A stretch of DNA of 31,354 nt from positions 1-31,354 of IMG/VR virus record IMGVR_UViG_3300042301_000459. One strand, given 5' to 3'. A model generated the notes under the pieces. The model did not search any database, had not been told where the DNA came from, and saw only the letters and a program-made list of their open reading frames with translations. How positions within the stretch are numbered: the stretch's first letter is position 1; every line of letters starts with the position of its first letter. Shown in pieces: positions 1,092 to 24,038 of this stretch. A program made the translations under genes and the position numbers. This DNA is from a virus.

Positions 1092-1178
1092 ATGAAAAGC
1101 AAAATTTCAACACTTAAACAATGGATTGAAGATGTTAATCCAACAATTTTAACAGACAAAACAAAAGAATCAAAATGA
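1092..1178 (+). CDS. 28-aa leader-like small ORF coupled to the helicase
   Basis: An ATG after an A-rich stretch opens a 28-codon frame (begins MKSKISTLKQW) that ends in TGA overlapping the helicase ATG as ATGA. The spacing and overlap match the coupled gene starts used throughout this genome, so it may be translated and pass ribosomes to the helicase. No function is recognised and it is short enough to be chance. Confidence 0.4.
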   Translation: MKSKISTLKQWIEDVNPTILTDKTKESK

Positions 1179-2545
1179 AAGACTATCAAGAATTTATTAA
1201 CTCAAAGAAGCACCTACTAGGTAACTTTGGATTCGAACCTAACTACGTTCCTGATATTGCATTTGATTTTCAAAAGCACATAATCGAGAAAGCAATTAGA
1301 AAAGGTCGTATAGGTGTGTTTGCAGATACAGGATTGGGTAAGACATTAATTCAATTATCAATAGCAAAAAACGTAATTAATCATACAAACAAAAAAGTAT
1401 TAATACTTACACCTTTGGCGGTTGCGTTTCAATTTATCTTAGAAGCTGAAAAGCTGGGTATAGATGACATCGAATATTCAAAAGACGGAAAGCACACAAA
1501 GAAGATAGTAATTTGTAACTATGAGCGTTTACACTATTTCGACCCTAAAGACTTTGTAGGTGTTATCTTAGATGAAAGTTCGATACTTAAAAACTTTGAC
1601 GGAAAGATTAAACAACAGATAACAGCGTTTGTTAAAAAGTTGCCTTATAGATTTCTTTCAACTGCAACACCTAGTCCGAATGACTTTATCGAATTAGGTA
1701 CAAGTTCAGAAGCACTAGGTTACATGGGTTACATGGATATGCTAGGAAAGTTTTTTAAGAACAATCAAAACTCAGTAGATTCTAACAACCGTAACATAGG
1801 GGAAAAGTTTTACTTAAAGCCACACGCTGAAAAGGATTTCTTTGCATGGGTAAATCAATGGTCGATTATGGTAAAGATGCCTAGCGATATTGGATATTCA
1901 AATGAGCGTTATAACCTGCCTGAGTTAATCGTTAATAAGCATGTTGTTACAAATGATAATCTAATTGATATCGGAGGTCAATTACAAATGTTTAATGTTA
2001 TTGCGAAGTCATTTAACGAGGTTAGACATGAACAAAAACAAACCGAGTTGAAACGATGCGAGAAAGCTATTGAATTAGCAAGCGGTAAAACTTCGGTATA
2101 TTGGTGTAATACAAACCAAGAAAGTGCGTATCTTCGTGAAATGGATAAAGACGCTGTTGAGATTATAGGTAGTCAATCCATAGACAAAAAAGAAGAAATA
2201 CTTTTAGCTTTTGCAAATGGTGAAATTGAAAGACTAATTACCAAAGCAAAGATGACATCAATGGGTTTGAACTGGCAACATTGTAACCATTCGGTATTCT
2301 TCCCTACATGGAGTTATGAGCAATACTATCAAGCTATTCGACGCTTTTGGAGATTCGGACAGAAAAATGACGTAACTATTGACATGGTTATTTCAGACGG
2401 TCAAACAAGAGTATTAGAATCATTACAGCAAAAAACAGAAAAGGCGATTCAATTACATAAATCGTTAACAGAAAATGTAAACCGTTCATTTGAACACAAG
2501 ACAAAAGAATTTAACAAAGAAATCATTAAACCTTCATTTATTTAA
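1175..2545 (+). CDS. SNF2/DEAD-like helicase
   Basis: A 456-residue superfamily 2 helicase. Visible motifs are Walker A ADTGLGKT at residues 50-57, motif II LDESS at 132-136, motif III STATP at 162-166 and motif VI QAIRRFWRFGQ at 386-396, the last being the arginine-finger motif in the form seen in SNF2-like enzymes. Both RecA-like lobes are present and the length is normal for a compact phage helicase. It uses ATP to translocate on DNA or remodel DNA complexes in the host cytoplasm. It lies directly before a DNA methyltransferase, a pairing that suggests the two act on the same DNA. Whether it serves replication, modification or recombination cannot be told from the sequence. Confidence 0.85.
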   Translation: MKDYQEFINSKKHLLGNFGFEPNYVPDIAFDFQKHIIEKAIRKGRIGVFADTGLGKTLIQLSIAKNVINHTNKKVLILTPLAVAFQFILEAEKLGIDDIEYSKDGKHTKKIVICNYERLHYFDPKDFVGVILDESSILKNFDGKIKQQITAFVKKLPYRFLSTATPSPNDFIELGTSSEALGYMGYMDMLGKFFKNNQNSVDSNNRNIGEKFYLKPHAEKDFFAWVNQWSIMVKMPSDIGYSNERYNLPELIVNKHVVTNDNLIDIGGQLQMFNVIAKSFNEVRHEQKQTELKRCEKAIELASGKTSVYWCNTNQESAYLREMDKDAVEIIGSQSIDKKEEILLAFANGEIERLITKAKMTSMGLNWQHCNHSVFFPTWSYEQYYQAIRRFWRFGQKNDVTIDMVISDGQTRVLESLQQKTEKAIQLHKSLTENVNRSFEHKTKEFNKEIIKPSFI

Positions 2546-2549
2546 GATT

Positions 2550-3566
2550 ATGGAAAGCAAAGTAAAAGACCAAGTAGTAACAGACCGTTACGCAATTTAT
2601 AACAGCGATTGCATGTTAGTAATGCCAACACTAGGCGACGAATCAATAGACCTATCAGTTTATTCACCACCGTTTGCAGGGTTGTATAATTACTCAAGTA
2701 GTGAGAATGATTTTTCTAACTGTGAAAGTAAGGAACAATTTTTAGAGCAATATGAATTTTTAGTAGCTGAGATTGCAAGGGTAACAAAAGCAGGTAGAAT
2801 TTCTGCGGTACACTGTACAGACGTATTTGATAACACGTGTAGACTTTGGGACTTCCCGAATGAGATTATTAGAATCCATGAAAAGTATGGTTTTGAATAT
2901 CGTAACCGTATAACAATTTGGAAAGAGCCTTTAAAGGTTCGTATGCGTACAATGGTTCAATCGTTAATGCACAAGTTTATTGTAGAAGATAGTACTAAGT
3001 GTTTTACTGCGATGCCTGACTATGTTTTAGTATTCACTAAGAAAGGAGAAAACAAAGTACCTGTAACGCACCCATTTGGAATTAATCACTATGCTGGAGA
3101 AACGCCAATTTTGCCTAACATTTTACGAGCATACAATAACGCTAATAATTCAGATTATAATACTGAGCAACTTTGGGAACATTTAAACGCTGTAAACGAA
3201 GATGACAAAATAACAAAACTTAATCATTATATTTGGCAGCGTTACGCTTCATCTGTTTGGGATGATATTAGAATTGATAATGTGTTACCGTTCAAGGATT
3301 CGAAAGAAGAAGACGATGAGAAACACGTACACCCTTTGCAGTTGGATGTAATTGATAGAATTGTCGAGTTGTATTCAAACCCTAACGAAGTTGTTTTAAC
3401 TCCATTCATGGGAGTAGGTAGTGAAGTTTTCAGTCCTGTATCAATGGGTCGTAAAGCAATTGGTATTGAATTAAAAGACAGCTACTATAAACAAGCGATT
3501 TTAAACATGCGTGAAGCTGACAAAAGATTTAAGGAATCAATTAAACAACAATCTTTATTTGAATGA
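2550..3566 (+). CDS. DNA methyltransferase (N4-cytosine/N6-adenine type)
   Basis: A 338-residue protein from the ATG at 2550. An upstream in-frame start at 2490 would overlap the helicase by 56 bases and adds a basic tail that looks like read-through. The catalytic motif IV is SPPF (residues 39-42) near the N-terminus, and the SAM-binding motif I FMGVGS is near the C-terminus (286-291). This order (IV before I) marks the beta group of amino-methyltransferases, and SPPF is more common in N4-cytosine enzymes than the DPPY of N6-adenine enzymes. It transfers a methyl group from SAM to a base in a short DNA site, probably to protect phage DNA from host restriction. No partner nuclease is seen, so it looks like an orphan enzyme. 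The stop overlaps the next start as ATGA. Confidence 0.85.
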   Translation: MESKVKDQVVTDRYAIYNSDCMLVMPTLGDESIDLSVYSPPFAGLYNYSSSENDFSNCESKEQFLEQYEFLVAEIARVTKAGRISAVHCTDVFDNTCRLWDFPNEIIRIHEKYGFEYRNRITIWKEPLKVRMRTMVQSLMHKFIVEDSTKCFTAMPDYVLVFTKKGENKVPVTHPFGINHYAGETPILPNILRAYNNANNSDYNTEQLWEHLNAVNEDDKITKLNHYIWQRYASSVWDDIRIDNVLPFKDSKEEDDEKHVHPLQLDVIDRIVELYSNPNEVVLTPFMGVGSEVFSPVSMGRKAIGIELKDSYYKQAILNMREADKRFKESIKQQSLFE

Positions 3567-6674: not shown

Positions 6675-7202
6675 ATGGATAGTAAATGGTTATCTAAAGT
6701 AGCAGAACATCACAAAGAATACGTAAACATCGTACGTTCATGGGGTGAGTTAGATTATTGTGAAGACATAGTTCAAGAAACGTATCTTAAGTTATGGCGT
6801 TATACTACTGAGGAAAAGATAATTAATAACGGTAAAGTATCAAAGACTTATGTTTGGTATGCGCTACGTTCAGTTTATATGGAGTATGTCATAAAAAAAG
6901 GAAAGCTACAAAAAGTAGAACTAATTAACAACATAGAGTACACAACCGAAATAGAAGAAGCTGAAGCCTATGGTTTGGTACTTGAAAGAATAGATAGAGA
7001 GATAGATTCTTGGCACTACTTTGATACGTTACTGTTTAGGCATTACATATCAAGCGGTAAAAGCATGAGAGAAATAGCAAAGGACACTAACATAAGTTTA
7101 AGAACAATTTTTGATACTATTAAACAATGCAAGCTACGAATCAAAGAAAACGTAGGAGAAGATTGGGATGATTTTGCAAATAAAGATTACGAGAAAATAT
7201 GA
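6675..7202 (+). CDS. RNA polymerase sigma-70-like (ECF-type) factor
   Basis: A 175-residue protein of ECF sigma size. The N-terminal part has the region 2 core DYCEDIVQETYLKLWRY (residues 27-43), matching the D-x-AQ(D/E)-x-F-L-x-x-W pattern of sigma region 2. The C-terminal part has the region 4 helix-turn-helix SMREIAKDTNISLRTIFDTI (about 129-148) with a following recognition-type helix. It would bind host core RNA polymerase and direct it to other promoters. Its own promoter is host-type, and the gene sits just before terminase and the morphogenesis operon, which fits a middle or late transcription switch. It could also be a transcription regulator that kept the sigma fold; the target promoters are not proven. 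Confidence 0.75.
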   Translation: MDSKWLSKVAEHHKEYVNIVRSWGELDYCEDIVQETYLKLWRYTTEEKIINNGKVSKTYVWYALRSVYMEYVIKKGKLQKVELINNIEYTTEIEEAEAYGLVLERIDREIDSWHYFDTLLFRHYISSGKSMREIAKDTNISLRTIFDTIKQCKLRIKENVGEDWDDFANKDYEKI

Positions 7203-9684: not shown

Positions 9685-10389
9685 ATGACACAAGAAATAC
9701 AAATACCAACTAAGTTAAGCGATGTTACACTAGAACAGTTTCAAGCGTTCAATAGAGTAACTGATGAAACAGATAACGAGGTGTTCATCTCACATAAGCT
9801 AATAGCAATCTTTTGTAAGATTAGAATGTCAGATGTTCTACGTATTAGACAAGTAGACTGTGAAGATATAGCAAACACTTTAAGATTGGTGTTAGAAGAA
9901 AAGAAAGACTTTGTACAGCGTTTTACTTTGGGTGGTAAAGAGTTTGGTTTTATTCCGAACTTAGAAGATATTTCAAGCGGAGAGTATGCAGATTTAGAAA
10001 CGTATATTTCTGATTGGTCAACAATGCACAAAGCACTAGCAGTATTATACAGACCTATTACTAAAACGAAAGGAGATAAGTACGAAATAGAACCTTACGA
10101 GGGTAGCGCAACTTACTCAGAAGTAATGCAGTACACGCCATTAAATATCGCTTTCGGAGCGTTGGTTTTTTTTTACCGTTTAAGCAACGAGTTACTAATA
10201 GCTTCCCTGAACTATTTGCAGAAGGAGATGGAAGTAATAGCTACGAAGCAAGCACGCAGTTCAGTAATAAATGGGGATGGTACAACAACTTCTATGCACT
10301 TGCTAAAGGAGACGCAACTAAGATTAAAGATGTTACAAAACTCGGACTATTTGAAGCCCTTACTTTCCTTACCTATGAAACAGAACTAA
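9685..10389 (+). CDS. tail assembly chaperone, zero-frame product (gpG-like)
   Basis: A 234-residue protein. The N-terminal ~160 residues contain FTLGGKEFGFIPNLEDISSG and WSTMHKALAVLYRPI, a pattern I associate with the protein placed before tape measure in Bacteroidetes phages. Residues 162-163 are encoded by a run of nine T (10166-10174), a T TTT TTT slip site. In this frame it ends FYRLSNELLIASLNYLQKEM then GDGTTTSMHLLKETQLRLK, which looks like real protein. Tail chaperones bind tape measure during tail assembly and often make two products by frameshift. It is the correct position (after terminase, before tail genes). A function as chaperone is inferred from context and the frameshift. Confidence 0.75.
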   Translation: MTQEIQIPTKLSDVTLEQFQAFNRVTDETDNEVFISHKLIAIFCKIRMSDVLRIRQVDCEDIANTLRLVLEEKKDFVQRFTLGGKEFGFIPNLEDISSGEYADLETYISDWSTMHKALAVLYRPITKTKGDKYEIEPYEGSATYSEVMQYTPLNIAFGALVFFYRLSNELLIASLNYLQKEMEVIATKQARSSVINGDGTTTSMHLLKETQLRLKMLQNSDYLKPLLSLPMKQN

Positions 10390-10406
10390 ATAGGATTCGT
10401 AAATGA
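9685..10406 (+). CDS. tail assembly chaperone, -1 frameshift product (gpGT-like)
   Basis: Read as 9685-10173 then 10173-10406, a -1 slip on the T run gives 240 residues that share the first 163 with the zero-frame product. The new 77-residue tail includes NSFPELFAEGDG and NKWGWYNNFYALAKGD, then VTKLGLFEALTFL, a tryptophan-rich helical pattern typical of the second part of tail chaperones. This frame is open from 10107 but has no ATG in it, so it cannot start on its own. Its TGA overlaps the next gene's ATG as ATGA, the coupling used across this genome. The alternative is an error in the count of T, but then the well-formed zero-frame tail would be unexplained. Confidence 0.7.
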
Positions 10407-10915
10407 AACAAGTAGAAGTACAAAGGGAGTTAGAATTATTCAAGAAGCGTGTTATTCAGCAGGCTAAGAGTAATCTTACACGAATGGGTAAAAACTCAAG
10501 CGGTGCTTTGCATAAAGGATTGAAAGGAGACTTAACGGTTTTTAAGAGTGGTAACTTTGGACTTGAGTTTGATTTAGGAAAGTATGGGGAGTTTCAGGAC
10601 AAAGGTGTAAGTGGAAAGAAACGAAAGTTTAACACACCATTTAGTTACAAGTCTAAGATGCCACCATCAAAAGTATTTGAGCAATGGGTAAAGAAAAAAG
10701 GTATAAAAGGACGAGATAATAAAGGCAGGTTTATAACAACTAAATCTTTAACTTATTTAATTGCACGAGGAATATTCAACAACGGTATAAAGCCTAGTTT
10801 ATTCTTTACAAAACCTTTCGAAAATGAGTACAAGAAACTGAGCGGTGATTTAGTAGAAGCGTTTGGTTTAGATATAGATGAATTTTTAAAATTTACAGTT
10901 AATGGCACTAGATAA
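10403..10915 (+). CDS. tail completion/neck protein (HK97 gp10-like)
   Basis: A 170-residue basic protein. It contains FDLGKYGEFQDKGVSGKKR and LIARGIFNNGIKPSLFFTKPF, which is the pattern of HK97 gp10-like and related neck or tail-completion proteins (a G-x-F-x-D-x-G core, then a hairpin, then a PFxxxYxxL helix). It would join the tail end to the head connector. The start is coupled to the -1 frame of the chaperone by ATGA and its end overlaps the next gene by 14 bases. Assignment is by pattern and place. Confidence 0.65.
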   Translation: MKQVEVQRELELFKKRVIQQAKSNLTRMGKNSSGALHKGLKGDLTVFKSGNFGLEFDLGKYGEFQDKGVSGKKRKFNTPFSYKSKMPPSKVFEQWVKKKGIKGRDNKGRFITTKSLTYLIARGIFNNGIKPSLFFTKPFENEYKKLSGDLVEAFGLDIDEFLKFTVNGTR

Positions 10916-11951
10916 AATATTAGCACGCTCCCCTTATTTCGTAACGGTTAACGGAGCATTAAACGATGAAATAACAGTTGAGTTATACATTTACAACGAA
11001 CCTGCAACTTCGCCAAGTGTACCAACGAAAGTACTTAGTAAGAAAATCTTTACAGGCACAAGTGTAAGTTTTAATATATCTCCTTACGTAAGGGAGTTTA
11101 TAGATGTGCAACCTGCTGCAACTGTAGACGCTCTTTATCCTAAAGCTAACAACGATTACTATTGTAGACTAAGATACAAAACATACATTAACGGAGCATT
11201 AGAAGACGATGAAACAGGTGGCTTTTGTTTTGATGGGTACGGTAACTTCGAGGAAGGTTATAATTTAAACTACTCTAATTTCTTTTTAAAGCCTTCAACA
11301 TATTATTTTTATAGTGGTTCAGCAGGTTTTAATGGTACTGTATCTTTTTACGCACGTGCTAACTGGTCAGCTAAGTATTCAGAAACGGGAACGGCAAATA
11401 CTACTACGGTTTCTTTGGGAACTGATGCAGCGATTAAGACTATCCATAGAACGTATTACACAACACTAGGAAACAAGTTAGAAATCTTTAATGCTTCAAA
11501 CGTATTAGAAGCGACATATTATTTTCTACCTAAAGACGAATGCAAATATACACCCGTAGCAGTTGACTTTATTAACAAGTACGGAATGCCACAGCGAGAG
11601 ATATTCTACAAGGCGTCTTACAAGAACTTCGAAGCAAATAGCACACCGTTTAAAGCAATGCCTTCAAGCGTAGATTACGATACTTCAAAAGCTATTAACA
11701 AGATAATGAATGTTAACGGTAAAGAGACAGTAAAAGTTAATACTGATTGGGTAAGTGAAGAGTACGCTGATACACTTCAAGAAATGCTGTTATCTGAAAA
11801 GATGAACATGGCTTTAGTAGTTAGTGGAGATTCTTATCCTTGCAAGTTACGCACTACTTCAATCGAGATGCACAAGCATATAAACCAAAAGCTAATTAAT
11901 TATACTTTAGAGTTTGAATTTGCCTTTGATAAACTTAACAACGTAATATGA
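10902..11951 (+). CDS. tail-associated structural protein, 349 aa
   Basis: A 349-residue beta-rich protein with repeats of Ile/Val/Tyr strands and Thr/Ser turns (PYFVTVNGALNDEITVELYI, SFNISPYVREFIDV). It has no signal peptide or enzyme motif. It is coupled to a 752-residue protein by ATGA and lies in the tail block, so a distal tail, tip or tail-sheath-like structural role is likely. Proteins of this shape recur in Bacteroidetes phages next to tape measure. I do not recognise a named family. Confidence 0.65.
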   Translation: MALDKILARSPYFVTVNGALNDEITVELYIYNEPATSPSVPTKVLSKKIFTGTSVSFNISPYVREFIDVQPAATVDALYPKANNDYYCRLRYKTYINGALEDDETGGFCFDGYGNFEEGYNLNYSNFFLKPSTYYFYSGSAGFNGTVSFYARANWSAKYSETGTANTTTVSLGTDAAIKTIHRTYYTTLGNKLEIFNASNVLEATYYFLPKDECKYTPVAVDFINKYGMPQREIFYKASYKNFEANSTPFKAMPSSVDYDTSKAINKIMNVNGKETVKVNTDWVSEEYADTLQEMLLSEKMNMALVVSGDSYPCKLRTTSIEMHKHINQKLINYTLEFEFAFDKLNNVI

Positions 11952-14206
11952 GAAGCGTACAAATATACGTTGAGAACCAACGCCTTGAATTATTTGCAGA
12001 TGAGACTATGACAGTTAACTCATCAACTCAAAACATTTACGATATTGCTTTAACGTTTACGGATATTTCTAGAACGTTTACAATACCAGCAACGCCACAC
12101 AATAACGCTATCTTTGAACACTACTATAACAATGACTTAGACACTGTAATAAACCACTCAAAGAGAAGGGATGCAAGAATAGAAATTGATTTAATACCTT
12201 TTAAAACGGGTCGCATTCAATTAGAAAAGTCAGCGGTTAAAAATGGTAATGCTGATTACTATACGGTAACTTTCTTTGGTGACTTTGTAAGTTTAAAGGA
12301 TGTAATCTTAGAAGATAAACTAAAAGATTTAGACTATTCAACTATCAACCACGAATACACAGGAGACGAGATTAAAGATAGGATAACAAATTATGATGAC
12401 AACATTCAATATCCTTTAATTACTTCGGGTCGTGTTTGGCAGTATGGAGATTCTACCACAAACGATATTAGTATAACGGGTGGAGCGATTGAGTATAGTG
12501 AGTTGTTTCCTGCTGTTTCTTACAAAGCAATTTTAGGACTAATAGAAGATAAGTACGGCGTTACTTTTACGGGTTCATTTCTTACTACTTCGCCACGTTT
12601 CTCAAATGCTTTTTTATGGTATAAGAACAAAGAGAAGTTAACTTTTTACAGTGAGCCTTCATTAGTTGCTTTTGCAGGTACAAGTGGAACACCTGTTTAT
12701 AATAACGAGGTGCTAGTTCAGTACGTAGAGCCTAGTTCACTTTTAACGGGTTCTTATGATACAGCATTGGCTATAAGTCATTTTGTGCAAATAGAAATTA
12801 ATACTTCTTATACGGGCGGTTATATTGTTGACGTTTACAAAAATGGAATCTTAGTAAATTCTATTAATGGAATAGGTACAAGCGGTTATAGTGTTTCATT
12901 AACTGCAAATGACATAGGACTAAATGATACGTATTATTTTAAAGTACGTGCTGAGGCTTCTATGGTATTTGATGCTGATGTAACTCACAAGTTAACTTAT
13001 ACTTTAGTTAATATTGGTGTTTCATCTTTAGGAGTTGAAGATATTACTACGGATAACTCAGGAACAATAACAACTACTGCAAATATCGACCTTTCAAGTT
13101 TAGCACCTGACATGAAAGTACTAGATTTAATTTCAGGAATGTTTAGGCAGTTCAACTTAGTTTGTTATGGCGATGGCGTTAACACCTATCGAATAGAGCC
13201 TTTAGAAGAGTTTTATAATTCGGGCGTGCCTTATGATATTACTAAGCACGTTTCAAGCGAGGTAGTAGAAGTAAATCGACCTGCATTATTTAATAACATA
13301 TCTTTCGAGTACGAGAAGTCTTTAAGTTTCATGAATATGGAATTTTACGATTTATTTGCACGTGAGTACGGAAGCCTTAGAAATACATTCGGTTACGATG
13401 GTGGAGATTATACTATAAAGTTACCGTTTGAAAGTTTACTATTTAACAAGTTCACAGGAACAAATATACAGGTTGGTTATTGTCTAGGCACTGAGCCTGA
13501 ATATAAAAACTATGTACCTAAACCCGTATCACTTTACAGAAATGAAAGGGTAGGTATTGGAACAGGTGCAAATTTAAAATTTGATAACGGAACAACTGTT
13601 TCTAGTATTACAAATTACGTACCATTTGGTCAAGATACTGTAGATTCAGATATAAACTATTCTTTGAACTTTAACAGCGATATTTCATCTTACACTTTAG
13701 AGATTGAAAACAATTCTTTGTACAAGATGTACTATCAAAACTATCTTATTAATTTATTCAATCCTAAGACACGTTTAGTAAGTGTCAATACTATTTTACC
13801 ATTAAGTATATTAGAGTCGCTTAGATTAAAGGATTCTATTATCATACGTGAAAAGAAGTACATTATTAACGATATGACTACTAACTTAATCACTGGCGAA
13901 GTAAAGTTTAATCTTATATCGAATTGGAGACCAACGCTAGATTTTGGAGCGGTGTATAATATTACTATTAGAGCGCAAACTTTGTATTATACTACTGAGA
14001 TACCTGATGGAATTACTTTGACTTTGGGAAGCCCTTACGAAACTGCATTTGCTACACCAAGTGCTACTACATTAAACGCAGGAGATACTTTAACGTTTAG
14101 TGTACCTGTAAACTTTGGTTCAGCAAGAACAAATACTTTTCCTGTAACGGTATCAAGTAACGGAACAACAATTTCTACACAGTTTATAATTATTAATCAA
14201 CAGTAA
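11948..14206 (+). CDS. large tail structural protein, 752 aa (tail tip/baseplate-like)
   Basis: A 752-residue protein. It opens with RSVQIYVENQRLELFADETM and DIALTFTDISRTFTIPATPH, a start often found in Bacteroidetes phage tail-tip or distal-tail proteins. The middle holds a helix-rich domain near LDLISGMFRQFNLVCYGDGV and a beta domain with EKKYIINDMTTNLITGEVKF. The last ~90 residues are a Ser/Thr-rich immunoglobulin-like domain. It has no catalytic motif. By size and place, directly before tape measure, it fits the baseplate hub or tail-associated protein that contacts the host. The role is inferred. Confidence 0.6.
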   Translation: MRSVQIYVENQRLELFADETMTVNSSTQNIYDIALTFTDISRTFTIPATPHNNAIFEHYYNNDLDTVINHSKRRDARIEIDLIPFKTGRIQLEKSAVKNGNADYYTVTFFGDFVSLKDVILEDKLKDLDYSTINHEYTGDEIKDRITNYDDNIQYPLITSGRVWQYGDSTTNDISITGGAIEYSELFPAVSYKAILGLIEDKYGVTFTGSFLTTSPRFSNAFLWYKNKEKLTFYSEPSLVAFAGTSGTPVYNNEVLVQYVEPSSLLTGSYDTALAISHFVQIEINTSYTGGYIVDVYKNGILVNSINGIGTSGYSVSLTANDIGLNDTYYFKVRAEASMVFDADVTHKLTYTLVNIGVSSLGVEDITTDNSGTITTTANIDLSSLAPDMKVLDLISGMFRQFNLVCYGDGVNTYRIEPLEEFYNSGVPYDITKHVSSEVVEVNRPALFNNISFEYEKSLSFMNMEFYDLFAREYGSLRNTFGYDGGDYTIKLPFESLLFNKFTGTNIQVGYCLGTEPEYKNYVPKPVSLYRNERVGIGTGANLKFDNGTTVSSITNYVPFGQDTVDSDINYSLNFNSDISSYTLEIENNSLYKMYYQNYLINLFNPKTRLVSVNTILPLSILESLRLKDSIIIREKKYIINDMTTNLITGEVKFNLISNWRPTLDFGAVYNITIRAQTLYYTTEIPDGITLTLGSPYETAFATPSATTLNAGDTLTFSVPVNFGSARTNTFPVTVSSNGTTISTQFIIINQQ

Positions 14207-14207
14207 T

Positions 14208-14363
14208 ATGATAAAAAATATTTTACAGATGCTTACGATAGATGACTTTAATAGAGAGTCTGAATTTATCGACATTGCAAAAGGTAGAAATGAAATACCT
14301 AAGACATTCAACAAAGCCTATAAACAAACAAAAAGAAAATACGCATGGAAAAAAAGACCGTAA
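14208..14363 (+). CDS. 51-aa basic small protein
   Basis: An ATG two bases after the 752-residue protein opens a 51-residue frame that overlaps tape measure by 19 bases. It begins MIKNILQMLTIDDFNRESEF and becomes very basic and aromatic (KAYKQTKRKYAWKKRP). It is in the position where phages may encode a short structural or assembly protein. No family is recognised. Confidence 0.5.
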   Translation: MIKNILQMLTIDDFNRESEFIDIAKGRNEIPKTFNKAYKQTKRKYAWKKRP

Positions 14364-16318
14364 TAATTGAAGTACAAACAGAGGATGGTGTAAAGCAATT
14401 AGACAGACTAAGCGCAAAGTTTGATGAGGTCTATGGCGATGTGTTACCTTTAACGGCTAGTATTGGTGAGTTGGAAGACCAACTTTACCAAATGGCTTTA
14501 GAGGGTAAAAGAGGTACTGAAGAATTTAATCTTTTAGCACAAGAAGCAGGTAGACTTAAAAAGACTTTACAACAAGTAGATATTGAAGTCGATGGTCTTT
14601 CAATGACTACAGCTAACAAGCTAGGCGGTGCTTTGGGTGGTGTTACGGCAGGCTTTGAATTAGTTCAGGGTGCAATGGGCGCAATGGGTGCTGAATCTGA
14701 AAAGGTTCAAGAAGCATTATTGAAAGTTCAGAGTGCAATGGCAATGGCGCAAGGTGTACAAGGACTAAAAGAAAGTGCTGCTTCATTTAAGGCATTAGGT
14801 GCTTCTGCTTCTACTGCATTTCAAGGAATGTCAAACGGTGCTAAAGTATTTGCTGCTACGGGTATCGGTTTGTTAATTACGGCTGTAGGTTATTTAGTAG
14901 CAAACTTTGATACATTAAAAGATTCGTTTAGCGGTGTAAGTGCAGGACAGAAAGCACTTACCGACACAATGGGCGATTATAAGAAAGGAGCAGAAGAGGC
15001 AGTAGCAGAAACTAATAACGTAAAGGTAGCTTTTGACTTAGCAAGAGATGGAGTAATTTCTAAAGAGCAAGCCCTTGAAACTTATAACGATACATTAGGC
15101 GATTCATTCGGGAAAGCTAAAAACTTAAACGAAGCAGAAAAGTTATTTAGAGAAAAGACAGATGCTTATATTCAAGCAACAGCATTACGAGCGCAAGCAA
15201 ACGCATTATTAACATTAGCAGCACAAGAATCGGCAAAGGCTTTGACTTCTCAAATGGAAGACCAAAGAACTTTAGGAGATGATATTAAATTAGGTGTTGT
15301 TCAAGCGTTAGGTTTCTCAGGTGCTACTGCTGATATTGGTAAAAAACAACAAGAACAAAGAAGAGCAGACGCAAAGAAAACAGCAGAAGCAAACGCTAAA
15401 ATATTTCAACAAGAAGCGGAAAACTTACTAAAGCAAGCAGCAAATGTAGAGAAGTCTAATAAGATTAAATCTGAGTCAGATATTAAGTACGATGCAGAAG
15501 CGGAACAACGCAGAAAAGACGCAGCATCCAAAGCAAAAGCAGCGAGAGAAAAAGCAATCGAAGATAAGTACGCACAAAATGCTGCTGAACTAGAAGCGTA
15601 TAAACGTAGACTAGAAGAGGAGCGTGGAATGCAAGAAGCGGAAGACGCTTGGAAGTTAGAACAGGAGAATAAAGCCATAGCAGACCAAGAAGCTAAATAT
15701 GAAAAAGAACGTGAAAAGGAAGAAAGAATATCTGCTTTTAGAATTGCTAATTGGGAGCGTGAAGCAGCAGAAAAAGAAAGGATTGAAAAAGCACAGCAAG
15801 CAATCGCTGTAAGAAATAAACAATTTGCAATAGAAAATGCAGAAGAAACTTTTCAATTTATAAGCGACTTAGCGACAATCTTTGAGGGTAAATCTGAAGA
15901 AAGCCAAAGGAGAGCGTTTAAAATTCGTAAGGCTTCAAGTATTGCACAAGCTACAATAGAAACTTATAAGGCTGCACAATCTGCGTACGCTTCACAGATA
16001 GTACCGGGAGACCCGACATCTCCTGTACGTGGTGCTATTGCTGCTAGTTTTGCTATTGCTTCAGGTTTAGTTAAAGTAAAGTCAATTGCTGCGACTCAGT
16101 TTGAAGGCGGTGGTGGTGCTTCAGGTGGTAGCGGTGGAGCAAGTGGTGTGCCAAGTTTACCAGCATCAAATCCTGCACAGTTTAACATCGTAGGGAACAG
16201 CGGAACAAATCAACTTAACGGCTTAGGCGGTGGAACTATGAAAGCGTATGTAGTTAGTGGAGATGTAACAAGCGCACAAAGTTTAGAACGTAATAAAATA
16301 ACAACAGCAACATTATAA
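14345..16318 (+). CDS. tail tape measure protein
   Basis: A 657-residue protein. It is long, Ala/Lys/Glu-rich and helical, with a hydrophobic segment at residues 168-188 (VFAATGIGLLITAVGYLVANF), long coiled coils around residues 370-520 and a Gly-rich C-terminus near residues 590-625. This layout is typical of tape measure proteins, which set tail length and help DNA entry. By the usual scaling of about 0.15 nm per residue the tail would be roughly 100 nm, a rough inference. It ends just before the protease gene. The poly-Lys/Glu region is low-complexity in codons. Confidence 0.85.
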   Translation: MEKKTVIIEVQTEDGVKQLDRLSAKFDEVYGDVLPLTASIGELEDQLYQMALEGKRGTEEFNLLAQEAGRLKKTLQQVDIEVDGLSMTTANKLGGALGGVTAGFELVQGAMGAMGAESEKVQEALLKVQSAMAMAQGVQGLKESAASFKALGASASTAFQGMSNGAKVFAATGIGLLITAVGYLVANFDTLKDSFSGVSAGQKALTDTMGDYKKGAEEAVAETNNVKVAFDLARDGVISKEQALETYNDTLGDSFGKAKNLNEAEKLFREKTDAYIQATALRAQANALLTLAAQESAKALTSQMEDQRTLGDDIKLGVVQALGFSGATADIGKKQQEQRRADAKKTAEANAKIFQQEAENLLKQAANVEKSNKIKSESDIKYDAEAEQRRKDAASKAKAAREKAIEDKYAQNAAELEAYKRRLEEERGMQEAEDAWKLEQENKAIADQEAKYEKEREKEERISAFRIANWEREAAEKERIEKAQQAIAVRNKQFAIENAEETFQFISDLATIFEGKSEESQRRAFKIRKASSIAQATIETYKAAQSAYASQIVPGDPTSPVRGAIAASFAIASGLVKVKSIAATQFEGGGGASGGSGGASGVPSLPASNPAQFNIVGNSGTNQLNGLGGGTMKAYVVSGDVTSAQSLERNKITTATL

Positions 16319-16333
16319 AATTGTTTAATTAAT

Positions 16334-16912
16334 ATGAAAAAATTACAAGAGATAGAACTGAAGATAAAAGACGAAAGCGAAGATGGTGTTTTTGCAATTA
16401 GTCTAGTAGAGAATCCTGCAATTGAAGAGGACTTTGTTTACCTATCAAAAGACGAAATACAACTAAAAGTAATTGACGAAGAAAAACGTATTGTAGTTGG
16501 TTTTGCTTTAGTGCCTGAAAAGAGAATCTACAGAGTAATGCAAGGTAAAGAATTTAACATTTACTTTTCTAAAGATACTGTAAGACGTTCAGCTGAGTTG
16601 TTTATGAAAAAAATGAACACACAAAACTTCACTTTAGAACACGATGAGAAAGTAGAAGGTATTAGTGTTATTGAATCATGGATAGTAGAAGACGCTAAAC
16701 AAGATAAATCTAATCTATACAACTTAGGCGCAAAAGGTGGCGAGTGGGTAGTTATGTCAAAGGTTTACAACGATGCGGTTTGGCAGGAGATTAAGGATGG
16801 AAAATACGGAGGTTATTCTATCGAAGCGATGTATGATGGATTCGAGCAACTACAAAGTAAAACACAAGAGGAATTAATCATTGAGCAATTAACACAAATA
16901 ATAAATAAATAA
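16334..16912 (+). CDS. XkdF-like prohead protease
   Basis: A 192-residue protein with SLVENPAIEEDF near the start, then IVVGFALVPEKRIYRV, TLEHD (residues 100-104, His103), ESWIVED (114-120) and KYGGYSIEAMYDG (157-169, Ser162). These are the landmarks of the phage XkdF/prohead protease-like family, in which the His and Ser are the likely catalytic pair. It would trim scaffold and capsid during head maturation. It lies just before scaffold and capsid, as expected. It follows an A/T-rich gap with the TTGTTTAA sequence discussed under findings. Confidence 0.85.
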   Translation: MKKLQEIELKIKDESEDGVFAISLVENPAIEEDFVYLSKDEIQLKVIDEEKRIVVGFALVPEKRIYRVMQGKEFNIYFSKDTVRRSAELFMKKMNTQNFTLEHDEKVEGISVIESWIVEDAKQDKSNLYNLGAKGGEWVVMSKVYNDAVWQEIKDGKYGGYSIEAMYDGFEQLQSKTQEELIIEQLTQIINK

Positions 16913-17052
16913 TGGCAAAAGTAAAAAAACCAAAGAAAGAAGACGTTGAAAAAGCACAACTAGGTCAAGGTATTGGAAGCCTAGTAAATCAATCAACAGC
17001 AGTAATAAACCATAGTAACGATGCCGTAACAGTTGTTACAACTAGAGGTTAA
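16912..17052 (+). CDS. 46-aa small protein
   Basis: An ATG overlapping the protease stop (TAATG) opens a 46-residue frame: a Lys-rich start (MAKVKKPKKEDVEKAQLGQG) then a Ser/Val-rich end. It sits between protease and the capsid-region genes. No family is recognised. The coupled start supports translation. Confidence 0.55.
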   Translation: MAKVKKPKKEDVEKAQLGQGIGSLVNQSTAVINHSNDAVTVVTTRG

Positions 17053-17099
17053 AAATGTTACAAACTATAAAACTATTTGTTTAACTAAAAAAAAGAATA

Positions 17100-17420
17100 A
17101 TGAGTGAATTAGACAGAGTTTACAAACAAGTTTTTAAAGAGGTTAAATTGTCTTCAAATGAAATCTATTTATCATTAGGAGATGATATTAGAAAATCTGA
17201 AAATGCTTTGAAAACTGCCTTATTAAACTACGGAGATGTAAAGGATAAATTTGAGGTTGCTAAAAAGAACTTTAAAAATGAAGCTGATAAAGCATATGAG
17301 GTAGCTATAAAATATAACGCAATGGCAAATGACTTAGGTTTAAAAGCAGTTGATAACCCAAGTTTTAAAGCAATAGATGCTTATTTAGCTTCTGACTTGT
17401 ATAGAAATCTTAATAAATAA
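17100..17420 (+). CDS. helical hypothetical protein, 106 aa
   Basis: A 106-residue helical charged protein (MSELDRVYKQVFKEVKLSSN, later YEVAIKYNAMANDLGL). No cysteine and no membrane segment. It sits between protease and scaffold, in the usual place of a scaffold-associated or capsid-assembly helper. The function is not recognised. Confidence 0.65.
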   Translation: MSELDRVYKQVFKEVKLSSNEIYLSLGDDIRKSENALKTALLNYGDVKDKFEVAKKNFKNEADKAYEVAIKYNAMANDLGLKAVDNPSFKAIDAYLASDLYRNLNK

Positions 17421-17450
17421 GGATTAGTTTAAATCAAATAATAAGTAAAA

Positions 17451-18035
17451 ATGAGTATTAAAGAAAACGTTAACAAAGTTCTTAGAAGTGTAGGACTAAA
17501 AGCGGTGGAAGTGAAACTTGCTCAAATGATGTTGGAAGATGGGGTAACGGTTATCGAAGCGGAAGAGTTCGAGCCTGAGTATTCCGTTGGAATCGTACAA
17601 GAGGAAGGTATCATTCCTTTGCCAGTAGGAGAATACACTCTAGAAGATGGGCGTGTTCTTGTTGTTGAGGTAGAGGGAATCATTGCAGCAATTAATGAAG
17701 CTGTAACTGAGGAACAAGCACCTGAGCAAGAGCAAGAGCCTGAGATGGAAATGAGCGAGCCTGAATCGCCACAAGCAAAAAAGATTGTTGAATCAATCGT
17801 TAAAGAATCTTTCTTTTCTGAAGTTGAAGCAATGCGTAACGAAATCACAGAGTTAAAAGCGCAGTTAGCACAAAAAGAATCGAAAGAAGAAACAGTTGAA
17901 TTGTCAGGTCAAGAGCCAGCAGTTGAACCAATTAAACACAATCCTGAGCCTAACAAGGTAACGGTAGATTTTAAAATTTCACCTAACCGTCAAAAAAATA
18001 CGATGGATAGAGTGTTAGAAATGATTACAAAATAA
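17451..18035 (+). CDS. scaffold-like protein
   Basis: A 194-residue acidic protein with a Glu/Pro/Gln-rich stretch near residues 86-108 (EEQAPEQEQEPEMEMSEPES), a coiled coil near residues 125-145 and a short basic C-terminus ending KNTMDRVLEMITK. The acidic middle, coiled coil and helical C-terminal tip, and its place between protease and major capsid, match phage scaffold proteins, which bind capsid subunits during prohead assembly and are later removed or cut by the protease. The assignment is by place and composition. Confidence 0.7.
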   Translation: MSIKENVNKVLRSVGLKAVEVKLAQMMLEDGVTVIEAEEFEPEYSVGIVQEEGIIPLPVGEYTLEDGRVLVVEVEGIIAAINEAVTEEQAPEQEQEPEMEMSEPESPQAKKIVESIVKESFFSEVEAMRNEITELKAQLAQKESKEETVELSGQEPAVEPIKHNPEPNKVTVDFKISPNRQKNTMDRVLEMITK

Positions 18036-18050
18036 ATTTAAATATAAACA

Positions 18051-19004
18051 ATGGCAACAACAACTTCATTAACTACAACATACGCAGGTGAGCACTCAGG
18101 AAAATGGGTAGCAGCAGCGTTATTATCAGGCGACACAATCGCAAACGGTGGTTTAACAGTTTTACCAAACGTTAAATACAAAGCCGTAATTAACAAACTA
18201 GGAACAGATGGGATTCTTAAAGATGCTTCTTGCGACTTTACAGCTACTTCTACTGTAACTATTACAGAGCGTACATTAGTACCTAAAGAATTACAAGTTA
18301 ACTTACAATTGTGTAAAAAAGATTTGCATTCTTCTTGGCAAGCTGCTGAGATGGGTTACTCTGCACACGATGTACTACCTAAATCATTTGCTGATTACTT
18401 AATCGCATACGCTGCTTCTAAAGTTGCTGCTGCTATTGAGGTTTCTTTATGGTCAGGTGCTACAGGTACTTCAGGACAATTCAACGGATTTGAGGTTTTA
18501 TTAGCTGCTGACGCTGCTTTACCTGCTGCTAACGAGGTTGCTGGAACTACTGTAACTGCTGCTAACGTTGTAGCTGAGTTAGGTAAATTAGTAGATGCTA
18601 TTCCTGCTGCTGTTTACGGAAAAGACGACTTGAAACTTTATCTTTCTCGTAACATCGTTAAAGCATACATTCGTGCATTGGGCGGATTCGGTGCTTCAGG
18701 TTTAGGTGCTAACGGTACAAACAACGCAGGTACACAATGGTACAACAACGGAGCGTTATCTTTCGATGGTATTCCAATCTTTATGTGTTCAGGAATGACT
18801 AACAACGTAGGTATCGCTGCAGAGACTTCAAACTTGTTCTTTGGAACGGGAGTATTGAGCGACCAAAACGAGGTTAAAGTTATCGACATGGCGGATATTG
18901 ATGGTTCAATGAACGTACGTATCGTTATGAGAATGACAGGAGCGGTTAACTACGGAAGTGTAGAAGATATTACTACATACGGTATCACAAACGCTGCTAA
19001 CTAA
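18051..19004 (+). CDS. major capsid protein
   Basis: A 317-residue protein. The N-terminal arm (MATTTSLTTTYAGEHSGKWV) leads into an Ala/Gly/Thr-rich body, with LYLSRNIVKAYIRALGGFGA and FDGIPIFMCSGMTNN near the C-terminal third; the pattern and length fit the capsid protein of many Bacteroidetes phages, expected to have the HK97 fold. It follows scaffold directly and is followed by a strong terminator, as is usual for a highly expressed capsid gene. Alanine codons are almost all GCT/GCA, an uneven choice typical of high expression. Confidence 0.88.
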   Translation: MATTTSLTTTYAGEHSGKWVAAALLSGDTIANGGLTVLPNVKYKAVINKLGTDGILKDASCDFTATSTVTITERTLVPKELQVNLQLCKKDLHSSWQAAEMGYSAHDVLPKSFADYLIAYAASKVAAAIEVSLWSGATGTSGQFNGFEVLLAADAALPAANEVAGTTVTAANVVAELGKLVDAIPAAVYGKDDLKLYLSRNIVKAYIRALGGFGASGLGANGTNNAGTQWYNNGALSFDGIPIFMCSGMTNNVGIAAETSNLFFGTGVLSDQNEVKVIDMADIDGSMNVRIVMRMTGAVNYGSVEDITTYGITNAAN

Positions 19005-19023
19005 TAACAATTAATTATTAACT

Positions 19024-19059
19024 AGAAAGGGGTGGTGCAACAAACGCCATCCCTTTTTT
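19024..19059 (+). terminator. rho-independent terminator after major capsid
   Basis: AAAGGGGTGG (19026-19035) pairs with CCATCCCTTT (19047-19056, one G-U), loop 11 bases, followed by a T run. This is the strongest terminator in the morphogenesis block and would limit transcription past the capsid gene. Confidence 0.85.
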
Positions 19060-19073
19060 AATACTATAAAACT

Positions 19074-19613
19074 ATGGCATGTGATATTGCAGCGGGGCGT
19101 ATAGAGCCTTGTAAAGATTCAATCGGAGGTTTAGATGCTATCTACTTCGTGAATGAAGGAGACCTTACGGGGTACACAATGGACTCTTCAAATACAGATG
19201 TTATTGAAGCGGTTTTAGGTACACCAAGTGCTTACAAATTTGATTTAAAAGGCACTTCTACTTACCAAGAAGATATTGTTTCTTCTCGTGAGAATGGAAC
19301 TACTTTCTTTCAGCAAGTGTTAACAGTTACGCTTAAAAAATTAGACGTAGCGACACACAAAGCGGTTAAATTATTAGCTTACGGAAATCCTAAAGTCGTA
19401 ATTAAAGACAACAACGGAAACTTCTTTATGGCAGGTAAAGACTTTGGAATGGATGTAACAGGTGGAACAGTTGTAACAGGTGGAGCAATGGGTGATTTAT
19501 CAGGATATACTTTGGTATTAACTGGAATGGAAAAAGCACCAGCGAACTTCTTTGAAGCGACTACAGAAGCAGGTTTAACATCAGCAGGATTTACAATCGT
19601 AGCAGGTTCATAA
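19074..19613 (+). CDS. major tail tube protein
   Basis: A 179-residue protein (MACDIAAGRIEPCKDSIGGL) with DIVSSRENGTTFFQQVLTVT and later GMDVTGGTVVTGGAMGDLSG, a beta-rich Gly/Thr pattern typical of phage tail tube proteins. It would form the hexameric rings of the tail tube. It lies between two terminators (before and after), so its level can be set apart from its neighbours. It is in the head region rather than next to tape measure, which is odd. Confidence 0.72.
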   Translation: MACDIAAGRIEPCKDSIGGLDAIYFVNEGDLTGYTMDSSNTDVIEAVLGTPSAYKFDLKGTSTYQEDIVSSRENGTTFFQQVLTVTLKKLDVATHKAVKLLAYGNPKVVIKDNNGNFFMAGKDFGMDVTGGTVVTGGAMGDLSGYTLVLTGMEKAPANFFEATTEAGLTSAGFTIVAGS

Positions 19614-19630
19614 TAAACAATTTTGTTTAC

Positions 19631-19668
19631 TTAAAGCCCTATTCGTTAACTCGTTTAGGGCTTTTTTT
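19631..19668 (+). terminator. rho-independent terminator after tail tube
   Basis: AAAGCCCTA (19633-19641) pairs with TAGGGCTTT (19656-19664), loop 14 bases, followed by T. Positioned just after the tail tube stop. Confidence 0.85.
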
Positions 19669-19701
19669 GTAACAAGAACTTGAATATATTGTTTAATAAG
19701 T

Positions 19702-20028
19702 ATGATTATAGTACAAGAATCGGCAAGCCCTCAAACGTTTAAGTTTATCCCTCGTTTATACGAAGCGGATAGCATGACTTTGACTAATGAGCAAACGAAT
19801 GAAGTATTTACTTACGAGATAAGCCCAACTAACACTACTTACTATCTTTCGGTAACTGAGATTTTAGATACTATTGAAAATAACACGTACACTTTAAAGG
19901 TGTATAATGGTACTGATGTTATCTACTACGACAAAGTATTTTGTACTAACCAAGATACAGATACATTTAGCGTAAACGATGGCGAATACGTACCTCACAC
20001 AAGCAACAACGATTATATTATTCTATGA
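19702..20028 (+). CDS. conserved structural protein, 108 aa
   Basis: A 108-residue beta-rich protein (SPQTFKFIPRLYEADSMTLT, then STYTLKVY-like NTYTLKVYNGTDVIYYDK) with immunoglobulin-like strand spacing. It is coupled to the portal gene by an ATGA overlap. This could be a head decoration or connector protein. No family name is recognised. Confidence 0.65.
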   Translation: MIIVQESASPQTFKFIPRLYEADSMTLTNEQTNEVFTYEISPTNTTYYLSVTEILDTIENNTYTLKVYNGTDVIYYDKVFCTNQDTDTFSVNDGEYVPHTSNNDYIIL

Positions 20029-21791
20029 GTACAATACACGTATTAGAACTAAGTAAATATACACAGCCTGAGATAGTAGAAAACACTAAGAACTCTTGGG
20101 TTGAGTACGGAGAAAATAACGATTACTACGAGTGGTTAATGAATCGTTACCGTAATTCTACAACAAACAACGCTATTATTAACAACATGGCACGTTTGAT
20201 TTATGGTAAAGGTATTGACGCAAGAGATGCAAGCCGTAAGCCAAACGACTACGCTCAAATGAAAATGTTGTTTTCTAATGAGACGTTAAGAAAATGTGCT
20301 TTAGAGGTTAAACTATTCGGAGGTTATGCTTTACAAGTTATCTATTCTAAGGATAGAAAATCAATCGCAAAGGTCGAACACTTACCTATTTACTTAACAC
20401 GCCCTGAGAAGTGCGATAAAGATGGTAATATTAACGGTTATTACTATTCAGATAATTGGGAAGATATTAAGAAGTTTGTACCTAAATACATTCCTGCATT
20501 TGGAACTTCACAAGCACCTTTAGAAGTGTTAGTAGTAGGTCAGTACTCAGTAGGTAGAAAGTACTTCCATAGAGTAGATTATGAAGGATGCTTAGACTAT
20601 TGTGTTTTAGAAGAAAAGATAAGTGAGTTCTTGATTAACGATGTTACTAATTCATTTAGCGGAACTAAGGTAATTAACTTTAATAACGGTAAAGGAACGC
20701 CTGAGCAACAACAAGAGCAAGTAAATAAAGTAAAAGGTAAGTTAACAGGTTCTACTGGCGACAAAGTTATTATTTCGTTTAATGACAATCCTGAATCTAA
20801 AACTACTATCGATGATGTACCTTTAGATAATGCACCTGAACACTATTCTTACTTAGCTACCGAAGCACGAAACAAGATTTTAGCAGGACACACAGTTACT
20901 AGTCCTATGTTGGTAGGTATTTCTCCTGATGGCGCAGGATTTAGTTCAAACGCTGATGAGATTAACACAGGAGCGTTATACTTCTACAATACAGCAATTA
21001 AACCACTTCAAGAGTTGTTAACTGATGGACTAGATAAAATACTAGCGTTTAACGGTGTTAATTTAGATTTGTACTTTAAGCGTTTAAACTTGTTAGAAGA
21101 TTTAGAAGCAGTACAGCAAGCTAGCGAGGTTGCAATGAGTAAACAAAAGTCTTTAGATGAGAAATTATTTAATGAACTAGACAAATACGCTGATGATGAT
21201 TTAGAAGGTTGGGAGTTAATAGATGTTCAAGATGTTAACTACGAACTAGAAGAGCAAGAAGACGCTTATTTAAACGAACTAAACAACCCTAAACAAAACC
21301 TTTTATCTAAGATTTGGGAATTTGTAAGTACGGGTACAGCAAGACCAAACGCTTCAAGCGAACAAGATGGTAATATATTTAAATCTCGTTATCGTTACGT
21401 AGGAGAAATTAAAGACAATTCAAGAGATTTCTGTAAGCGAATGATTAGCGCTAACAAGATTTATCGTAAAGAAGATATTATTGCAATGGGTTCACAAGTA
21501 GTTAACGAAGGATGGGGTGCTGAAGGAGCAGATACGTATTCTATTTGGTTGTATAAAGGCGGTGGTGCTTGCGGTCATAAATGGGTTCGTGAAACGTATC
21601 TTAAAAAGTCAGATGCTAACTCACCACTAGCTAGAAAGTACACACCTGCTGAAGTTCGTAAAGCTGGCGAGATTGTACCATTAACAGACAAAGATAAGAA
21701 CGGAAAAGCAGTAAATGACCAACGAGTTTATACAGCACCTAAAGATATGCCTTACGAAGGATTTTTACCAACTAACAAACGCTTTAACTAA
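20025..21791 (+). CDS. portal protein with MuF-like C-terminal region
   Basis: A 588-residue protein. Residues 1-400 have the layout of phage portal proteins: NDYYEWLMNRYRNSTTNNAI near the start, then KCALEVKLFGGYALQVIYSK and TSPMLVGISPDGAGFSSNAD. The last ~150 residues read RYVGEIKDNSRDFCKRMISA followed by SIWLYKGGGACGHKWVRETY, matching the end of MuF-type minor head proteins, so the two functions seem to be in one chain. The portal forms the ring where DNA enters and the tail joins. The gene lies after capsid rather than before, an unusual order. The end overlaps the next start as TAATG. Confidence 0.85.
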   Translation: MSTIHVLELSKYTQPEIVENTKNSWVEYGENNDYYEWLMNRYRNSTTNNAIINNMARLIYGKGIDARDASRKPNDYAQMKMLFSNETLRKCALEVKLFGGYALQVIYSKDRKSIAKVEHLPIYLTRPEKCDKDGNINGYYYSDNWEDIKKFVPKYIPAFGTSQAPLEVLVVGQYSVGRKYFHRVDYEGCLDYCVLEEKISEFLINDVTNSFSGTKVINFNNGKGTPEQQQEQVNKVKGKLTGSTGDKVIISFNDNPESKTTIDDVPLDNAPEHYSYLATEARNKILAGHTVTSPMLVGISPDGAGFSSNADEINTGALYFYNTAIKPLQELLTDGLDKILAFNGVNLDLYFKRLNLLEDLEAVQQASEVAMSKQKSLDEKLFNELDKYADDDLEGWELIDVQDVNYELEEQEDAYLNELNNPKQNLLSKIWEFVSTGTARPNASSEQDGNIFKSRYRYVGEIKDNSRDFCKRMISANKIYRKEDIIAMGSQVVNEGWGAEGADTYSIWLYKGGGACGHKWVRETYLKKSDANSPLARKYTPAEVRKAGEIVPLTDKDKNGKAVNDQRVYTAPKDMPYEGFLPTNKRFN

Positions 21792-22305: not shown

Positions 22306-22398
22306 ATGATTGAAAAAAAGAGATACACACCTAAAGAGGAAAATGTAAAGAAGTTGCAGAAGTACCTTTTAAAGTTAAGTAAGGAGGAAAAGAAATGA
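22306..22398 (+). CDS. 30-aa lysine-rich small protein with internal ribosome site
   Basis: A 30-residue frame (MIEKKRYTPKEENVKKLQKY) coupled by ATGA to the next gene. Its 3' end contains AAGGAGG at 22381-22387, 7 bases before the next ATG (22395), a perfect Shine-Dalgarno core. That is unusual for a Bacteroidetes host, where such sites are seldom used. Confidence 0.5.
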   Translation: MIEKKRYTPKEENVKKLQKYLLKLSKEEKK

Positions 22399-24038
22399 AT
22401 GGCTTTTATCAATTCACGACAAAAATAAAAGATACTTTAAAGTTAGACCCGTTTGTAAAGACTGTTACTTACGGAGATATATTTCAAGTAGATTTAAATA
22501 AACAAACTATTTTCCCTTTGTCTCACTTAGTAGTAAATAATGTTACTAAGGAATCAAACGTTATGCGATTCAATGTTTCTATTCTTGCAATGGATATTGT
22601 AGACGTATCTAAAGAAGCAACTACTGATATTTTCATCGGTAATGATAACACGCATGACATTTGGAATACACAACTAAAAGTATTAGATAGACTTACTGAG
22701 TTGTTAAGACGTGGTTCAATTGTTTCAGAAGGTTACCAATTAGATGGAAACCCTACATTTGAGCAATTCACTGAACGCTTCGAAAATTACCTAGCAGGTT
22801 GGACTGTTACTTTTGATATTATTGTTTCTAATGACATGACTATTTGCGAAGTTGGAAGTTCAGGTAGTTCATGCGCTGATGCTTCTTATGTAATTACAGA
22901 TACAGATGGAAATATTTTGTATAACGGAAGTATTGCAAGTGGAGACAATGAAAACATTACAATATTAGACAGTGATTACTTAGTCGAATATATAAACGGA
23001 ACGCCAATAGAAAGCGGTTCTATACCAGCTGAGGGAAGTGTAACTATTCAAGTACCAAATCCTGTTACGTGTGAAGATGTTACTGTAAATGTAAACGGTG
23101 CATTTTGGGATAGCGTGCCTAGCGGTGGAACTGAGAATGTTATTGTACGTCAATCTTCAGGCTCTACACAAGTAGGTTCTATACAAGGTCAATACTTCAG
23201 GATAGCAGACTCAACGGCAGTACTCAAAACAACGGGCGGTACAACAATTTCTACAACTTCAATTAAAGCAGAAGCTAGTGCAAACATAGTAGCACCAAAC
23301 ACTACGATAGAAGTAAACGGAACAACTGAGGGTACTGTTGTAGCGGGTGCAACTGTTGATATTCAATTAAGCAATCCTAGCGGAACGGTAACTCCAACTT
23401 CAATAACTCAAGTAGGTAATGACTTACAAGTTGTTTTACCAGCAACTGCAACACCAAGAAGTACGGCTACACTTTTAAAAACTGGACAAACTACTTCGTA
23501 TAGAACTGGAGACGATGGAGATATTGAAGCAGGACGAGATGTATCATTTTTGATACTTGCAGAAAACAATCCATTTGGTAATACCAACAGATTTACAGAC
23601 GAGTTAGGAGGTCAAACATACACAAATAATATAGTAATTGATTGGAGTACTTATAACGGTTCGAAGGTTTTAGGCTATTACAGACGTTTATTAAATACAG
23701 GTGGTGTAACTTATGACTTTAGTTGGAATGATGCAATAGATAAAGCCTTAACGCATTCTGTAACAGGATTCACAAGTGGTTGGAGATTGTGGAATAGAAG
23801 AGAATTAGATAATATTATTAATTTAGAATATTCAAACGGATTTCCACCGCCTTTCGATAATGCTAGCGGTGGACAGATTGAAGCACAAAACCTTTGGACT
23901 TCATCAACTCTAAAAATCTCTACAACTCAGGCTTGGTATACTCAGTTTTACGGCTCACTTAATTATGGCGCAAAATCAGGAAATCGCAGAATTGTTGCCG
24001 TTCGTGATTTCACAGTTACAGGAACAACTTTATCTTAA
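22395..24038 (+). CDS. connector/tail-terminator protein fused to Lcl-type (DUF1566) lectin-fold domain
   Basis: A 547-residue protein. Residues 1-155 (FYQFTTKIKDTLKLDPFVKT, HDIWNTQLKVLDRLTELLRR, YLAGWTVTFDIIV) fit a connector or tail-terminator protein. Residues 165-395 are beta-rich repeats with Ser/Thr/Gly (for example VTVNVNGAFWDSVPSGGTEN). The last 104 residues match the DUF1566/Lcl C-terminal pattern: WNDAIDKAL, GWRLWNRRELDNII, NLWTSSTL, AWYTQF and a final VAVRDF. That fold is C-type-lectin-like and often binds carbohydrate or collagen. The chain would connect the tail to a receptor-binding function. An SD-like AAGGAGG precedes the start. Confidence 0.65.
   Translation: MNGFYQFTTKIKDTLKLDPFVKTVTYGDIFQVDLNKQTIFPLSHLVVNNVTKESNVMRFNVSILAMDIVDVSKEATTDIFIGNDNTHDIWNTQLKVLDRLTELLRRGSIVSEGYQLDGNPTFEQFTERFENYLAGWTVTFDIIVSNDMTICEVGSSGSSCADASYVITDTDGNILYNGSIASGDNENITILDSDYLVEYINGTPIESGSIPAEGSVTIQVPNPVTCEDVTVNVNGAFWDSVPSGGTENVIVRQSSGSTQVGSIQGQYFRIADSTAVLKTTGGTTISTTSIKAEASANIVAPNTTIEVNGTTEGTVVAGATVDIQLSNPSGTVTPTSITQVGNDLQVVLPATATPRSTATLLKTGQTTSYRTGDDGDIEAGRDVSFLILAENNPFGNTNRFTDELGGQTYTNNIVIDWSTYNGSKVLGYYRRLLNTGGVTYDFSWNDAIDKALTHSVTGFTSGWRLWNRRELDNIINLEYSNGFPPPFDNASGGQIEAQNLWTSSTLKISTTQAWYTQFYGSLNYGAKSGNRRIVAVRDFTVTGTTLS

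Follow-up and report, generated by a model that had tools for sequence, protein, structure and literature searches.

Many Bacteroidetes phages may well set the ratio of two proteins by letting RNA polymerase slip on a selected run of nine T, after which about 36 codons appear to be read in two frames; we lean toward this reading with fair confidence. The gene in question lies at positions 9685 to 10406 of the window, by which we mean the whole stretch of viral DNA that was analyzed (31,354 nucleotides). The initial annotation had placed a T run at 10166-10174 inside a zero frame running from 9685 to 10389, together with a -1 frame open from 10107, and these coordinates are all confirmed, the -1 frame ending in a TGA at 10404-10406. 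The features of the gene are as follows.

9685 to 10389, plus strand: zero-frame product of 234 amino acids, the predicted major form (open reading frame, homologues, AlphaFold pLDDT 82)
9685 to 10173, plus strand: N-domain common to both products, 163 codons
10166 to 10174, plus strand: nine-T slip site (nine T in 182/184 and ten T in 2/184 distinct homologues; pattern scan)
10173 to 10406, plus strand: -1 tail, 77 amino acids and a TGA; the N-domain and this tail make up the 240-amino-acid fusion
10174 to 10281, plus strand: about 36 codons with protein-level selection in both frames (substitution classes, simulation, codon columns)
10282 to 10389, plus strand: remainder of the zero-frame tail, with weak constraint and a length that differs among relatives
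10181 to 10183, plus strand: TAA shutting the third (+1) frame directly after the T run (sequence)
10403 to 10406, plus strand: ATGA, in which the -1 stop overlaps the start of the next gene (10403-10915)

It had also been observed that the -1 frame has no ATG and that its TGA is coupled to the next gene as ATGA. The sequence bears this out, and a scan of open reading frames at 10107-10406 finds none in the -1 frame of at least 60 amino acids that starts with ATG, GTG, or TTG. An internal start for the -1 tail was considered and rejected, as the window has no usable start codon for it. In some relatives the first -1 codon is TTG, but this TTG falls within the slip site itself, and initiation inside the gene would give no reason for the run to stay at nine. 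PHROGs splits the gene between two families of unassigned function, with the zero frame in phrog_32199 and the -1 tail in phrog_38404.

In the account that we find probable when taken as a whole (polymerase slippage, two products, a chaperone pair, and about 36 dual codons), a single start would give rise to two proteins. In most transcripts, nine U would be copied and translation would stay in the zero frame to produce the 234-amino-acid protein. In some transcripts, RNA polymerase would slip on the nine T and add one U, and ordinary translation of this ten-U transcript would enter the -1 frame, resulting in a protein of 240 amino acids with the same first 163 residues and another, helical C-terminal domain. 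Holding the run length at nine would set the ratio of both products. If lambda G/GT is taken as the model, the pair would be a tail assembly chaperone, with an abundant form and a minor form that carries an extra binding domain, and the 36 or so codons after the run would serve both proteins.

The search for relatives, in viral contigs and genomes, used peptides and made no use of the T run; it produced at least several hundred matches. A profile scan took in 223 homologous loci; the distinct sequences among those with a readable tail number 184 and form 54 clusters at 70% and 21 clusters at 50% protein identity. The tail is in the -1 frame in every one of the 219 loci with a readable tail, and none of those 219 has a single-frame fused version; in the remaining 4 of the 223 loci the tail is absent and the contigs are truncated. 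Among the 184 distinct sequences, 182 have exactly nine T, two have ten, and there is no run shorter than nine. Related phages, which the initial annotation had proposed as the place to look, thus share both the frame arrangement and the run. The nine T are in the same phase as in the window in 174 of the 184 sequences, and moved by one base in 8, all of one clade, perhaps as the result of one event.

In addition, we performed a DNA pattern scan in which four T are fixed and 0 to 8 further letters are free, such that run lengths of 4 to 12 are permitted. Every stretch among the matches listed (at least 120) has exactly nine T. Elsewhere in the 1.1 Mb of homologous loci, nine T occur only 12 times. 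The base preceding the run varies (G, C, or A), and ten T are nonetheless rare. The third frame is shut within 3 codons after the run in 183/184 sequences; this is the frame that other slippage products would enter, and its early closure would also follow from the residues encoded. Judged by its conservation, which goes well past what chance would give, the -1 shift arrangement is a family-wide, selected feature.

The homologous loci belong to Flavobacteriaceae-type phages and prophages. Known hosts are Flavobacteriaceae/Bacteroidetes (Nonlabens and Galbibacter), and the metagenome bins are named Flavobacterium, Winogradskyella, and Psychroflexus. Among the 397 genomes that were sampled around Galbibacter, no more than 3 have the gene, and one of these copies is apparently broken. 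A prophage-like copy (L357), whose matched stretch is interrupted by three in-frame stops, still has the nine-T run, with the bases after the run altered.

What is it that slips? The run at the junction has the properties of a transcriptional slippage site, namely that it is made of A/T, is about nine or more long, and is conserved as a whole. A run of nine A/T makes bacterial polymerase slip efficiently (PMC5009743), insertion slippage by the E. coli polymerase favors poly(T) (PMC6260861), and slippage amounts to about 15-55% in characterized genes of Shigella, Citrobacter, and Yersinia (PMC4256274). Within the run, both Phe codons are invariably TTT (54/54 and 50/50 clusters), whereas in seven other conserved Phe columns 23-42% of the codons are TTC. 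Using the 54 clusters, we observe no excess local folding downstream of the run (z about 0 at 13 offsets, pseudoknots being outside the model), and no consistent SD-like element upstream of it by eye. Because nine T are held, the Phe codons are always TTT, nine is kept after the phase move, and no stimulator is predicted, slippage by RNA polymerase at the nine-T run is the likely mechanism. It is the homopolymer, not the heptamer, that the conservation appears to track, although hydrophobic residues in the two frames could also account for the T on either side of the core.

The alternative is ordinary -1 ribosomal frameshifting, in which two tRNA-Phe slip on T TTT TTT (10167-10173) to produce the same two proteins, and we regard it as unlikely while still giving it real weight. 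Every member has such a heptamer (X_XXY_YYZ) in register, and in E. coli the U_UUU_UUY type ranks among those that shift more readily (PMC4066793); a ribosomal shift is also the known mechanism in tail assembly genes (PMC5009743). On the other hand, seven T would suffice for the ribosome, yet there are always nine or more. Moreover, if the heptamer ended in C instead of T, neither protein would change (in the usual phase) and the site would remain shift-prone; such a C occurs in 0 of 184 sequences, although transitions silent in both frames are otherwise frequent in this stretch (at few sites). Neither a stimulatory structure nor a consistent SD-like element is predicted in the 54 clusters, and not every ribosomal shift site needs a stimulator. 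The initial annotation had attributed the shift to slippage at T TTT TTT. A programmed shift that puts both frames to use stands, while the ribosome as its agent is probably wrong, given a conserved homopolymer, invariant TTT, and no downstream structure predicted. Another reading, to which we give practically no credence, is that the gene is decayed or was misread in sequencing or assembly, such that the true run would be off by a base and the product would be a single fused protein. Homopolymers are generally error-prone, but the same nine T and the same frame relation recur in 184 distinct sequences from independent samples, in the isolate phages P12024S/L, and in a Galbibacter pacificus genome of high coverage. 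Sequencing error is ruled out by conservation across both isolates and metagenomes.

How much of the overlap between the two frames is under selection in both? Because sister pairs and clusters are not fully independent, the constraint figures are to be taken as guides and not as exact probabilities: the fraction of codons for the same residue that differ between sister pairs is 0.30 in the upstream gene (mostly terminase) and 0.26-0.29 in the N-domain, compared to 0.086 in the first half and 0.159 in the second half of the overlap, 0.141 past the zero-frame stop, and 0.277 in the next gene beyond its first 25 codons. The low 0.141 past the zero-frame stop implies that the overlap is not the sole cause of the constraint. 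The low synonymous change there (10282-10406 in the window, and relatives) perhaps reflects start-site signals of the next gene.

The direction of the substitutions is more informative about the first 36 codons. Transitions that alter the zero frame and are silent in the -1 frame have a value of 0.061, and those that alter the -1 frame and are silent in the zero frame 0.083, both against a single-frame baseline of 0.168; for transitions silent in both frames the value is 0.58 (about ten sites only). In simulations given the observed -1 proteins, the identity in the zero frame is 652 +/- 12, and the observed identity is 779/953. As an example of a codon column, one zero-frame position is Leu in 50/50 clusters (TTA, TTG, or CTA), and the -1 residue at that position is L, I, V, F, or T. 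Every -1 Leu in this column is CTT, a codon that accounts for about 1/8 of the Leu codons in the window's genes, and with the single -1 Thr (ACT), the zero-frame Leu (CTA) is still encoded! Synonymous recoding would also lead one to expect a shorter open zero frame than the window has (P < 0.0003 by codon usage, 0.03 by permutation).

Taken together, the substitution classes, the simulation, and the invariant Leu column indicate that about 36 codons after the run are truly dual coding at the protein level, as far as such comparisons can tell. Beyond them, the same comparisons point to a -1 frame that dominates and to a zero-frame end that wanders, between 15 and 89 codons. The initial annotation had described a long dual-coding overlap, which is real for these 36 or so codons and shorter than the whole overlap claimed. 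Likewise, a test of synonymous-site constraint, which had been suggested for the whole overlap, finds both frames constrained in the first 36 codons or so, and the remainder only weakly. The two long tails that had been described, of 71 residues in the zero frame and 77 in the -1 frame past the junction, are present in the window, but they are not a fixed trait, because the zero-frame tail has 15 to 89 codons in relatives. RNA structure downstream, considered as a reason for the low synonymous rate, is rejected, since the folding z is about 0 and the substitution classes point to protein coding.

One could propose instead that only the -1 product matters and that the zero-frame tail is a by-product, open by chance or kept so against early termination. 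The variable position of the zero-frame stop (15-89 codons) would agree with this proposal, as would a synonymous rate that is also low past that stop (0.141). For the first 36 codons, however, changes that affect the zero frame only are rarer than those that affect the -1 frame only (0.061 vs. 0.083, with the baseline at 0.168), and all 50 clusters keep the zero-frame Leu at a position where the -1 residue differs between them, such that we find the proposal improbable for the tail as a whole. For the distal zero-frame tail, it may be right.

With respect to function, the initial annotation had called the gene a tail chaperone. Such a role for the gene pair is quite likely, resting on gene context and the analogy to lambda G/GT, although Pfam and NCBIfam yield no matching family of any kind, no PHROG chaperone matches, and the structural support is one weak match. 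A structure search reports phage homologues of unassigned function and that one match to a BFVD tail assembly chaperone (E 0.06), and the PDB provides no useful match by sequence or by fold. VIA fold matches were discarded as generic helical hairpins (residues 160-231). In the AlphaFold model of the zero-frame product (pLDDT 82), the N-domain is compact and a long helix (153-191) crosses the junction; the -1 tail is modeled as a separate helical unit (pLDDT 74).

The slip gene adjoins the packaging terminase, being downstream of the terminase gene, and three genes separate it from a probable tape measure gene (14345-16318). The Galbibacter prophage has the same gene order after the slip gene, with one extra gene. 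The order in the window at 9685-21791 is unusual, with the terminase, the slip gene, and the tail genes and tape measure placed before a protease gene and probable capsid and portal genes. The window also encodes a sigma-factor-like protein at 6675-7202 (phrog_1740, E 2.6e-6), and there is no phage RNA polymerase gene among the window genes scanned. From the presence of one and the absence of the other, the host polymerase probably transcribes the phage.

Chaperones of the lambda G/GT type bind the tape measure and the tail tube protein, are absent from the virion, and are made in a fixed ratio. The gene described here resembles lambda G/GT and other frameshifted tail chaperones in having one start, two predicted proteins, a common N-terminal part, and a C-terminal domain in the -1 frame, and its place among the structural genes, upstream of the probable tape measure gene, also recalls lambda G/GT. 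It differs in that its slip site is an invariant nine-T run instead of a heptamer with a ribosomal -1 shift, in having about 36 dual-coded codons and a long zero-frame tail, in its lack of a sequence match to known chaperone families, and in its location, which adjoins the terminase and is separated from the tape measure gene by three others. With Shigella mxiE/spa13, Thermus dnaX, and Citrobacter and Yersinia tssM, it shares a long A/T run joining two frames (PMC5009743, PMC4256274), no predicted RNA stimulator, and the expectation of an extra base in part of the mRNA. Unlike those bacterial genes, it is a probable phage morphogenesis gene in which slippage is predicted, its run keeps a length of nine across very diverged relatives, and both frames code afterwards. 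The Nonlabens phages P12024S and P12024L have a homologous pair (genes 38/39 and 40/41) with the nine T and the -1 tail; it differs in that the zero-frame tail has only 25 codons and in being annotated as two separate hypothetical proteins, an example of how automatic gene calling divides or overlooks the second product.

In the open-access papers searched, we found neither transcriptional slippage described for a phage tail or other morphogenesis gene nor any account of a shift in the gene studied here. If the polymerase does slip, phages would solve the problem of a fixed protein ratio in two ways, with the ribosome (lambda) or with RNA polymerase (here). Hundreds of natural versions of the nine-T site would then make the determinants of slippage efficiency testable in Bacteroidetes.

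Two other arrangements in the window involve fused or overlapping genes. At 22395-24038, a 547-amino-acid fusion protein combines a phrog_30964 N-terminal part with an Lcl_C domain (Pfam PF07603, E 3e-9); the phrog_30964 part is a separate gene in the Galbibacter prophage (L079, 5727-6176), directly after the -1 tail. At 1175-3566, a DEAD-type helicase is followed by an N6/N4 DNA methylase, and the two overlap at 2490-2545.
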